NCBI GenBank assembly: GCA_020631135.1
Contig: JAHDHU010000009.1
Span: 1-39,113, forward strand
Length of the DNA stretch: 39,113 bases
Reading direction: 5' to 3'
From: Saprospiraceae bacterium
GTDB lineage: Bacteria; Bacteroidota; Bacteroidia; Chitinophagales; Saprospiraceae
Position numbers and translations under genes: made by a program. Of the stretch, positions 14,865 to 17,292 are shown piece after piece. Each line of letters starts with the position of its first letter. The stretch's first letter is position 1. Below the pieces are notes generated by a model. The model searched no databases and was not told the DNA's origin. It saw nothing but the letters and a program-made list of their open reading frames with translations.

Positions 14865-15781
14865 TGCGAAACCGCTTCGCAGTAATGGACTTAGGTTCCA
14901 ACACCTTTCATTTACTTATCGTCGAATTTGAATCCCCAAATTCTTTCAAAGAGGTACATCGCATTCGAGTATATACAAAACTATCTCAAGGCGGAAAACA
15001 AGAAATATTGTCTTCTTCCTACGATAAGGGAATAGAATGTTTAAAATCATTCAAAAAAGCGATGATTGATTTTAAGGTAAAAAATTATCGAGCTATCGGA
15101 ACTGCCACTCTAAGAACCGCAAGTAATGGCAAAGATTTTCTCGCATACGCGAAAGAAAAAATAGGTATTGAAATTGAATTGATCGATGGAGAAAAAGAAG
15201 CCGAACTCATAGCGAAGGGTGTTTTAACAGCTGTCGGGAGACTCAAAGGTCCTGGACTCATCATGGACATCGGCGGAGGAAGTGTTGAATTTATACTTAT
15301 TAAAGAAAATAAGATCAGTTACTTACAGAGCTTCAAAATAGGACTTGGAATATTGAAAAGTAAATTTCATCAACTTGATCCGATGAATGAAAATGAAGTG
15401 TCTGCAATGATTGATTTTTTAGCACTCGAACTAAAGCCTTTAATCGAAGCATGCAGTAAGACGAATATAGAGTATCTCATCGGAGCCTCAGGAACCTTTG
15501 AAGTTCTTCAAGAAATGAGCGACGCCTCTCCCAGAAATGCACATTCTTACTCTTGTCAAATTTCAGATTTTACGGCTATACATCATGACATTAAAAAACT
15601 ATCATATAAGGAACGTTTAGATCATCCTAATATTCCGGATCAACGTGCCGATTTGATGGTAGTCGCATTGCACCTAATCAATTTTGTCATTCACGAATGT
15701 GGTCCTAAAGAGCTTATAATATCTGATTTTGCCCTAAAAGAAGGTTTACTTCATTCATTTAGATCAATATATTTAGATTAA
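14864..15781 (+). CDS. Ppx/GppA phosphatase family protein
   Basis: 305 residues, about the length of domain-I/II-only members of the exopolyphosphatase / guanosine pentaphosphatase family (ASKHA fold). The two phosphate-binding loops are visible: MDLGSNTFHLLIV at residues 8-20 and IMDIGGGSVEF at 133-143. The catalytic glutamate lies in ELIDGEKEAELI (about residue 110), and GASGTFEVL (adenosine/P2 loop) comes later. The C-terminal HD-like domain of long Ppx proteins is absent. The likely reaction is hydrolysis of polyphosphate or pppGpp; which one cannot be told from sequence. Translation is coupled to the lipoprotein upstream. Confidence 0.92.
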   Translation: MRNRFAVMDLGSNTFHLLIVEFESPNSFKEVHRIRVYTKLSQGGKQEILSSSYDKGIECLKSFKKAMIDFKVKNYRAIGTATLRTASNGKDFLAYAKEKIGIEIELIDGEKEAELIAKGVLTAVGRLKGPGLIMDIGGGSVEFILIKENKISYLQSFKIGLGILKSKFHQLDPMNENEVSAMIDFLALELKPLIEACSKTNIEYLIGASGTFEVLQEMSDASPRNAHSYSCQISDFTAIHHDIKKLSYKERLDHPNIPDQRADLMVVALHLINFVIHECGPKELIISDFALKEGLLHSFRSIYLD

Positions 15782-15791
15782 TCTAAAAATA

Positions 15792-15807
15792 TATTTTTGT
15801 ATATTTG
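15792..15807 (+). promoter_or_regulatory. Two tandem -7-like boxes TATTTTTG and TATATTTG
   Basis: Two back-to-back exact matches to TAnnTTTG (15792-15799 and 15800-15807) lie just before the permease-repressor start codon at 15811. They indicate an internal promoter separate from the Ppx/GppA operon, possibly with two alternative start sites. The first would give a leader of only a few nucleotides. Confidence 0.5.
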
Positions 15808-15810
15808 ATC

Positions 15811-17292
15811 ATGGACTTACTTCAAGTTTTGACGGAAGAATGGGTGATGCGAGGAATCATTGCCTCTTCTCTCGTAGGGATTACCTGTGGAATAATCGGC
15901 TGTTTTATTGTACTTCGAAACATGTCCATGATCGGTGATGGACTGGCGCACGCTATTCTTCCCGGAGTATTTGTGGCTTTTCTGGTATTGGGATACAGTA
16001 CAATTGGATTTTTTATTGGTTCTGTAATCGCGGGATTAATTACCGCTTTTGGAATCACCTGGATCCAACATAAAGTAAATACAAAGAATGATGCTGCTAT
16101 AGGAATCATATTTACCGCCATGTTTTCTCTTGGAGTTATTGGTATTTCATATTTGAATAATGAACAGGGTGTTCATATTGACCTTAAAGACTTTTTGTTT
16201 GGAACTACACTTGGTGTTTCAAACGAAGATATCTGGCTCTCTTTGGGTATTTGTGTTTACACCATCCTCAGTGTAATAATATTTTACCGCTATCTCTTTA
16301 TTACTACCTTCCAACCCACCATTGCAACCACAATGGGTATTTCAGTAAAAAACATGCATTATTTTTTAATGCTAATGCTTTCCTTTGCCGTAGTCGCTTC
16401 TTTGCGGACGGTAGGTTTGATTTTGGTAGTTGCGATGTTGGTTACACCTCCGTCCACCGCACTATTGTTAAGCAACAAATTAAAAAGAGTCATTTTATTA
16501 TCTGCCTTACTCGGCTTGTTTACAGCAATGTCTGGTTTTATATTAGCGATTGTCCTTAATGCTCCACCGGGACCATTAATGGCTGTGGTGGCAACATCAA
16601 TTTATTTATTGACAGTTGTTTTTTCCCCTAATAAAGGCCTGCTTTTCAAATTTATCAATAAAAGAATTCAACTCAATAAAATAGAAAGAGAAGACATTAT
16701 CAGACAGAGCATCAGGTACCCTAAGGGAACTAAAATTAGTTTTAAAGAATTAACTGACCGTTTAGGTTTTACAACTTCCAAGCTAAATAGACATATCAAA
16801 GCACTTAGCGAAGATGGACTTATTCTTGCTCAAAACGATGGACTTCAATTAAGCATCAAAGGTTTAGAAAAAGGAGATGCTCTTGTGAGAGCCCATCGAC
16901 TTTGGGAGTCTTATCAAGTTAATAAAATGGGACTCAAAGAAGGCCAAATTCACGAAGAGGCCGATCGTTTAGAGCATTTTCTAACCGACGAAATGCTAGA
17001 TGAAGTAGATGAAAAACTTGGGTTCCCTACCTCCGATCCCCACGGCAGTCCTATACCGCAGAAAAAAGCAAAACCTATAAATCCGCTACTAAAACTTAGA
17101 CCAAAAGATTTAGCTATAATCTCTAAAGATCAAATTAGCGATTGGGTTGAGTCGGAGTTGTGGGAACTAGGTTTATTACCTGAAAATCCGATATCGGTTG
17201 TTTCGATTGGCACGGACCATGTCACGATAAAAAAAGGGAAGTCTGAAATAAAAATTCCTGCAGATTTGGCCAGCCAAATCAATGTCCATTAA
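15811..17292 (+). CDS. Metal ABC transporter permease fused to DtxR/MntR-type repressor and FeoA-like domain
   Basis: 493 residues from ATG 15811; a TTG two codons upstream is less likely. Residues 1-275 form a ZnuB/MntB/TroC-type ABC-3 permease with about eight membrane helices and the conserved MSMIGDGLAHAILPGVFVAF and LRTVGLILVVAMLVTPPSTA stretches. Residues 290-355 are a winged helix (DRLGFTTSKLNRHIKALSEDGLI is the recognition region). Residues 356-415 are the DtxR metal-binding/dimerisation domain. The ligand ladder is present: D295 (MntR D8), H362 and E366 (DtxR H79, E83), H381 (H98), D385 (C102 or MntR E99), E388 and H389 (E105, H106). Residues 428-493 resemble the FeoA/SH3-like tail. 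Transporter and regulator in one chain recall chlamydial YtgCR, whose repressor part is released by cleavage. No ATPase or binding-protein gene is adjacent. Confidence 0.92.
   Translation: MDLLQVLTEEWVMRGIIASSLVGITCGIIGCFIVLRNMSMIGDGLAHAILPGVFVAFLVLGYSTIGFFIGSVIAGLITAFGITWIQHKVNTKNDAAIGIIFTAMFSLGVIGISYLNNEQGVHIDLKDFLFGTTLGVSNEDIWLSLGICVYTILSVIIFYRYLFITTFQPTIATTMGISVKNMHYFLMLMLSFAVVASLRTVGLILVVAMLVTPPSTALLLSNKLKRVILLSALLGLFTAMSGFILAIVLNAPPGPLMAVVATSIYLLTVVFSPNKGLLFKFINKRIQLNKIEREDIIRQSIRYPKGTKISFKELTDRLGFTTSKLNRHIKALSEDGLILAQNDGLQLSIKGLEKGDALVRAHRLWESYQVNKMGLKEGQIHEEADRLEHFLTDEMLDEVDEKLGFPTSDPHGSPIPQKKAKPINPLLKLRPKDLAIISKDQISDWVESELWELGLLPENPISVVSIGTDHVTIKKGKSEIKIPADLASQINVH

Follow-up and report, generated by a model that had tools for sequence, protein, structure and literature searches.

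The gene at positions 15811 to 17292 on the forward strand of the window, by which we mean the whole 39,113-nucleotide stretch of DNA analyzed here, encodes a metal permease continued in frame by a DtxR-like domain. The best explanation for this fusion, to which we give a probability of roughly 0.6, is that a former repressor has become a metal sensor that may gate its own transporter. The first-pass annotation had presented the protein as a transporter joined to a metal-sensing repressor, which might act while tethered, be released by proteolysis, or gate transport. Of these three options, the gate appears to fit the sequence comparisons best. The repressor headline is not supported, given that the recognition helix and wing are unconserved, a stand-alone MntR coexists with the fusion, and the link between the two halves is of fixed length.

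The gene starts with an ATG at 15811, its stop codon ends at 17292, and the intervening frame encodes 493 amino acids with no internal stop. An ABC-3 permease domain comes first (residues 10 to 271, 15838 to 16623; PF00950, E = 6e-66), with a match that spans profile positions 3 to 257 of 258, i.e., the full-length domain. It is followed by a winged helix-turn-helix (residues 293 to 349, 16687 to 16857; HTH_24 match at residues 309 to 338, E = 1.6e-5), a DtxR metal-binding and dimerization domain (residues 350 to 417, 16858 to 17061; Fe_dep_repr_C, PF02742, E = 4.9e-22), and a FeoA/SH3-like end (residues 425 to 492, 17083 to 17286). Reading frame and Pfam matches thus bear out the earlier description of one uninterrupted permease-DtxR-FeoA frame, and the FeoA-like end is present, though barely over the Pfam cut-off (23.7 versus 23 bits). 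All seven metal ligands that had been listed (D295, H362, E366, H381, D385, E388, and H389) were found. The same architecture recurs at full length in many genera among the relatives, which rules out an assembly error or a hidden frameshift and shows that the frame is not a chance reading frame.

The upstream neighbor of the fusion gene is a Ppx/GppA phosphatase gene, and a gene for a RoxA-like cytochrome c is convergent with it; the two convergent stop codons overlap by 4 nt (17289 to 17292). Between 13748 and 15781 lie an outer-membrane barrel gene, a small gene, and the Ppx/GppA gene, followed by the fusion gene, and this order recurs in relatives, with the Ppx/GppA gene immediately 5' of the fusion gene at 50 of the 95 loci of the close form (defined below) that have enough flank. 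Among the eight neighboring proteins scanned, there was no ATPase or substrate-binding protein (SBP), as the first-pass annotation had stated; these partners sit on another contig.

We searched 150 Saprospiraceae genomes with the fusion protein and obtained matches in 144 of them, part of these to the DtxR part alone. A close form of the fusion (best E below 1e-80) was present in 104 genomes, three of which (G007, G033, and G034) gave partial matches; a distant form of about 430 amino acids and 28 to 31% identity, here called type 3, was present in 9, and the fusion was absent from 37. The close form occurs with the FeoA end (type 1, about 490 amino acids) or without it (type 2, about 420 amino acids, under 450). 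The 98 distinct close sequences from the fetched loci, which were aligned and include the protein studied here, comprise 68 of type 1, 22 of type 2, and 8 of type 1 length in which FeoA was undetected. Type 3 was sampled at 27 loci, 9 from Saprospiraceae and 18 from other families of the phylum. At 15 of the 27, the codirectional order is mntR, SBP, ATPase, and fused permease, then a plain permease; at three (L267, L276, and L277), the fused gene has no mntR, SBP, ATPase, or permease neighbor; and at the remainder, mntR is divergent, cut off, or elsewhere. In other genomes of the phylum (e.g., G534, G341, G403, and G399), there are pairs of neighboring ABC-3 permease genes with frames of about 360 to 430 amino acids.

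In a tree of the DtxR part, 51 fused sequences (24 of the 98 close ones and 27 of type 3) fall on one side of a branch with support of 98, against 35 stand-alone sequences (18 of 43 plus 17 others), in a quick reconstruction that used 143 columns, lacked an outgroup, and left many forks weak. Because the fused parts of both groups share one side of this branch, a single origin of the fused sensor would be the simplest reading. The permease tree contains three groups, is unrooted, and carries a long-branch warning. Nested within its close fused group is the permease of one genome (G033, locus L122), which is complete at 328 amino acids and has no DtxR part, the sole such case among the fetched loci. 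Given this nested position, it looks like a loss of the domain, probably a natural one and hence a natural control.

The partner proteins had been expected to be encoded elsewhere in the genome, and a search for them had been proposed; an unlinked operon now supplies them. The assembly, which is 73% complete, contains one ZnuA-type binding protein, one ABC-3 permease (the fusion), and two DtxR domains. On contig C11, mntR (220 amino acids), an SBP gene (333 amino acids), and the ATPase gene P0004 (246 amino acids) stand in a row that includes no permease, which rules out a transporter with missing partners. Across the family, an SBP was found in 106 of the 113 genomes that carry a fusion and in 2 of the 37 that lack it (Fisher P = 8e-25, kinship ignored), one of the latter two matches being weak (G058), and at three loci (L033, L077, and L279) the fusion gene lies directly 3' of the SBP and ATPase genes. 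The fusion is probably the membrane subunit, expected to be a homodimer, of an importer that uses the SBP and ATPase of the mntR operon. SBP and ATPase occur as one chain at three loci: L053, 357 to 2114 on the minus strand (G107); L124, 2824 to 4434 on the plus strand (G036); and L130, 2661 to 4442 on the plus strand (G066). The C-terminal end of the SBP on contig C11 reads like a membrane helix, which makes a protein running from a periplasmic SBP through a membrane helix to a cytosolic ATPase plausible; together with the fusion permease, such a chain would give an importer that needs two genes.

The two loci share a candidate operator. A perfect 16-bp palindrome, TTTAGATTAATCTAAA, lies at 15772 to 15787, and we propose it as a DtxR/MntR-type site; it was absent from the first-pass annotation. 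It ends 4 nt before the first of two abutting TAnnTTTG boxes (15792 to 15799 and 15800 to 15807, forward strand), which we take to be the Bacteroidetes -7 type motif. These putative boxes are the tandem pair that had been put forward as the gene's own promoter, and by sequence both are present. A second exact copy of the palindrome precedes mntR-SBP-ATPase (G000:C11:28094-28109), and the 73%-complete assembly holds no third. With up to two mismatches, two more palindrome-like places appear in this genome, compared with 10 matches on each strand for a control in which the pattern was read backwards; in the window alone, up to three mismatches give one match versus 1.4 expected. Since the mismatch searches do no better than the control, the argument for an operator depends on the pair of exact copies found at partner loci and on the relatives. 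Among the latter, 96 close fusion genes had 150 nt of flank or more, and TTTAG-N6-CTAAA lies no farther than 300 nt upstream in 67 of them (0.075 expected in shuffled sequence). The rest of these fusion loci, 400,715 nt, contains it 9 times, their mntR operators included. Of the stand-alone mntR genes, 34 of 43 have the motif in front of them. The distance from operator to TAnnTTTG box is not constant, and because these gaps scatter among the fused genes of relatives, promoter spacing was dropped as a shared signature.

The metal ligands of the fused domain are strongly conserved. In the 98 close fusions, H362, E366, H381, E388, and H389 are invariant, position 295 is D in 96 and H in 2, and position 385 is E in 83 and D in 15. 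The same five residues are invariant in all 27 type 3 fusions, in which position 385 is E (26) or D (1) and D295 is replaced by N in 22 and by H in 4, the remaining sequence having a gap there; stand-alone Saprospiraceae MntR also has N there in 40 of 43 sequences. Column variability in the close fusions is 1.21 bits for the metal domain, 1.04 bits for the permease, and 2.56 bits for the winged helix, which keeps its hydrophobic core despite a variable surface.

What is not conserved is the DNA-reading surface, including the recognition-helix equivalent (residues 321 to 336, 16771 to 16818). In 38 matched genomes, variability in stand-alone MntR versus the fused protein was 0.64 versus 2.61 bits for the recognition helix, 0.90 versus 3.08 bits for the wing, and 0.81 versus 1.11 bits for the metal domain; the stand-alone set leans to closer relatives (30 loci being best matches), which genome matching partly corrects, and some of its copies may be paralogues (e.g., in G066, 46%). 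All 23 helix and wing columns compared were more variable in the fused protein than in MntR, while for the metal domain 32 of 66 columns were more variable and 17 less (P = 0.02). Type 3 repeats the pattern (17 stand-alone versus 27 fused sequences), with 1.10 versus 2.35 bits for the recognition helix, 1.59 versus 3.04 bits for the wing, and 1.05 versus 1.18 bits for the metal domain; the 17 comprise 15 sequences from type 3 operons, one divergent neighbor (L039), and one from a close-form locus (L279). The alignment with MntR that had been suggested as a check on the recognition helix thus gives a negative answer, its residues not being kept in the fused homologues. The condition that had been named as refuting a repressor, homologues without the DNA-contact residues, accordingly also speaks against DNA reading. 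On these grounds, the fused part very probably does not read the operator. Stand-alone MntR probably does, because operator and MntR stay unchanged while the fused helix drifts. Reading of the operator by the fused domain is disfavored by the unconserved DNA-reading residues and by the way operator and MntR track each other. Compared with that of MntR, the recognition helix of the fused protein is more basic (+3.6 versus +1.0 in MntR), so that some unspecific contact with DNA or lipid is possible.

The tracking of operator and MntR can be followed in the 97 genomes with a close fusion. With a threshold of 212 bits, a stand-alone MntR was found in 78 of them, and the genome studied here has one as well (C11). 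A strict operator precedes the fusion in 60 of the 78. Among the other 18, eight (G003, G005, G022, G071, G099, G114, G115, and G128) carry the fusion, without an operator of its own, on the same contig a few kilobases downstream of mntR and SBP, an arrangement in which none would be expected. Four have variant sites before the fusion (G002, G025, G113, and G130), five have mntR on another contig and no operator-like site before the fusion (G061, G096, G112, G117, and G120), and in one (G007) the sequence upstream of the fusion is absent from the assembly data. Three further genomes (G009, G036, and G103) have an SBP and keep all ligands of the fused domain, with no operator before the fusion and no stand-alone mntR found. 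In five (G054, G079, G118, G126, and G136), the operator is present and neither SBP nor mntR was found, probably owing to assembly gaps. The 11 genomes with merely distant or partial stand-alone DtxR have a strict site in two cases (G016 and G043) and variant sites in some others (e.g., G004, G106, G116, and G137). Co-occurrence of operator and MntR is therefore a tendency seen in few informative genomes and not a rule. A second stand-alone DtxR, of about 40% identity, occurs in a number of these genomes.

The link between permease and sensor is nearly constant in length. Counted from P273, where the membrane part ends, to D295, it measures 23 residues in all 98 close fusions and in 26 of 27 type 3 fusions, although its letters vary (2.15 bits over positions 276 to 292); the loops of the winged helix, unlike this link, change length. 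AlphaFold2 (mean pLDDT, 80; pTM, 0.67) draws residues 277 to 301 (16639 to 16713), which include the ligand D295 (codon 16693 to 16695), as one helix running from the membrane into the sensor, and the mean pLDDT values of three blocks within residues 271 to 300 are 77, 86, and 87. The fixed length and the single modeled helix are more in keeping with a lever than with a linker made for cleavage. In models of Bacillus anthracis MntC, the last membrane helix likewise extends into the cytosol, and cutting the extension is reported to abolish activity in a manganese-sensitivity assay (PMC8487065). We infer that the lever corresponds to this extension; if so, a ligand of the sensor would be positioned on a segment that a relative requires for transport.

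The transported metal is likely manganese, since manganese proteins are nearest to both halves. For the permease, the closest solved structure is PsaC of the PsaBC manganese importer (E = 1.5e-46, versus 5e-25 for ZnuB). D43 (15937 to 15939), H47 (15949 to 15951), and D94 (16090 to 16092), a stretch covering 15937 to 16092, are invariant in 61 sequences, and in our reading they match by position the Asp-His-Asp triad described in B. anthracis MntC (PMC8487065), with D43 and H47 backed by the alignment with PsaC. For the sensor, the list of DtxR structures ranked by fold has SloR and ScaR, assigned to manganese from their structure titles, on top and IdeR from rank 13 on, and the closest superposition is with the manganese regulator DR2539 (root mean square deviation, about 2).

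These observations can be joined into the following scheme. At high metal, stand-alone MntR would repress both loci via the shared palindrome. The fused DtxR part would no longer read DNA and would serve as a cytosolic metal sensor within the transporter, and cytosolic metal would fill a site to which the lever contributes D295 and the dimer domain H362, E366, H381, D385, E388, and H389. A filled site might then clamp the lever helix, which is continuous with the last membrane helix, and hold the permease at rest. Control would thus have two layers, a fast feedback inhibition of existing transporters at the protein level atop the slow repression by MntR. The fused architecture, the partners, the palindrome, the metal site, the unconserved recognition surface, and the length of the lever are sequence based. 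We infer the metal binding, the lack of DNA binding, the role of MntR as reader, the coupling with its sign, and manganese as the metal. Metal-dependent control of transport by the fused domain seems probable, whereas for inhibition as the sign of the coupling the chances are about even. More tentatively, and at somewhat less than even odds, we speculate that in an ancestor of these Bacteroidota a DtxR/MntR repressor was converted once, its first helix welded to the last membrane helix and its DNA reading given up, such that the metal-driven movement by which it formerly positioned its DNA-binding heads would gate the pore.

The gate is favored by the three genomes that keep the ligands of the fused domain without operator or mntR. 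It is weakened by the replacement of D295 by N or H in type 3, as the letter of the lever ligand differs between the groups; by the slightly higher variability of the fused metal domain than of that of MntR; and by the imperfect tracking of operator and stand-alone mntR. As the fused subunit of type 3 mostly occurs alongside a plain permease, which leaves a single DtxR part in each presumed heterodimer, a canonical DtxR dimer within one such transporter would be impossible, and the permease of G033 indicates that the domain is not strictly needed. Conservation is silent on gating and its sign, and the domain might just receive or buffer metal. Such a receiving or storage domain, taking metal at the permease exit and passing it on without regulating transport, would account equally well for kept ligands and a lost DNA-reading surface, and the direct attachment of the domain to the last membrane helix suits it. 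We consider it unlikely, as it leaves the fixed lever length and the position of a ligand on the lever unexplained and as the whole dimer domain, beyond its ligands, is conserved. A little less likely still is a mode of action like that of chlamydial YtgCR, in which the C-terminal part, released by proteolysis or acting while tethered, represses its own transporter genes. The architecture is shared with YtgCR, which is reported to be cleaved and to bind DNA in a metal-dependent manner (PMC5599777, PMC7755916); fold and ligands are retained, the recognition helix is basic, and an operator precedes the fusion gene. But the DNA-reading residues are unconserved although the operator is conserved, a stand-alone MntR accompanies the fusion in this genome and neighbors many type 3 fusions, the link is near-invariant in length and helical in the model, and in three genomes with an SBP the domain is kept where the operator is absent and mntR was not found.

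The same three genomes bear on the idea of an antirepressor, in which the membrane-bound DtxR part would pair with stand-alone MntR and take it off DNA. A dimerization fold common to both proteins would permit this, and by the score threshold MntR is present in 78 of 97 close-fusion genomes; we nevertheless find the idea improbable, because the fused domain persists with all ligands where stand-alone mntR was not found and because fixed positions of the fused domain are unlike those of MntR (position 361, A in 98 of 98 versus K, R, or N; position 391, L in 93 of 98 versus mostly K or Q). Finally, the domain could be a jobless relic of an old fusion that is tolerated, as the drifting winged helix, the missing FeoA end of type 2, and the absence of the whole domain in G033 might suggest. 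This is very improbable for a metal and dimer domain whose conservation is close to that of the permease (1.21 versus 1.04 bits) and whose ligands are kept across two divergent groups.

If the gate is right, a metal sensor has moved from the control of genes to the control of a transporter, and the fusion would let one trace how a transcription factor became an allosteric domain, besides providing a form of feedback control in manganese import. Other permease-repressor fusions, now read as stored repressors, may then include many gates, and we would in that case caution that such fusions should not be annotated as regulators.

Permease-DtxR fusions as such are known, the one studied case having a DtxR part that is cleaved off as a repressor. 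A 2017 review reports orthologous fusions in 11 phyla, by which the architecture itself is established, and suggests that regulation of the YtgCR kind is used by bacteria at large (PMC5599777). Among the matches listed in the open-licence part of PMC, by titles and the starts of abstracts, no paper assigned the gating of transport to a fused DtxR domain, and none joined permease-DtxR fusions with the fused regulatory domains that stop ABC importers. The fusion resembles YtgCR in that an ABC-3 permease stands in frame with a DtxR-like domain bearing metal-coordinating residues. YtgD of the operon ytgABCD is a further permease, and in this the operon resembles the type 3 loci with their fused and plain permeases. 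In contrast to YtgCR, the fusion described here has a separate MntR, an unconserved helix and wing, and a link of fixed length, whereas YtgR of Chlamydia is reported to be cleaved off, to bind DNA, and to act as an iron-dependent repressor (PMC5599777, PMC7755916).

With MntBC and PsaBC, the fusion shares the permease domain, the Asp-His-Asp residues, the expected homodimer, and the cytosolic extension of the last helix; it differs in carrying a DtxR-like sensor on that extension, for which the accounts consulted describe no counterpart. With the MntR/DtxR regulators (SloR, ScaR, DR2539, and IdeR), it shares the fold, the ligands, the dimer domain, and the FeoA/SH3 end, and it differs from them in being membrane bound and in the unconserved DNA-reading surface. 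The nearest functional parallel, if the gate is right, would be MetNI and ModABC, in which a cytosolic domain is reported to bind the imported substrate and stop transport (PMC10710835). In those importers, the domain is on the ATPase side; here, it is the permease that carries the added domain, and the ATPase P0004, at just 246 amino acids, has no counterpart to the ATPase-borne domain of MetNI and ModABC. The sensor proposed here would instead act from the membrane subunit and would do so with a fold derived from a repressor.
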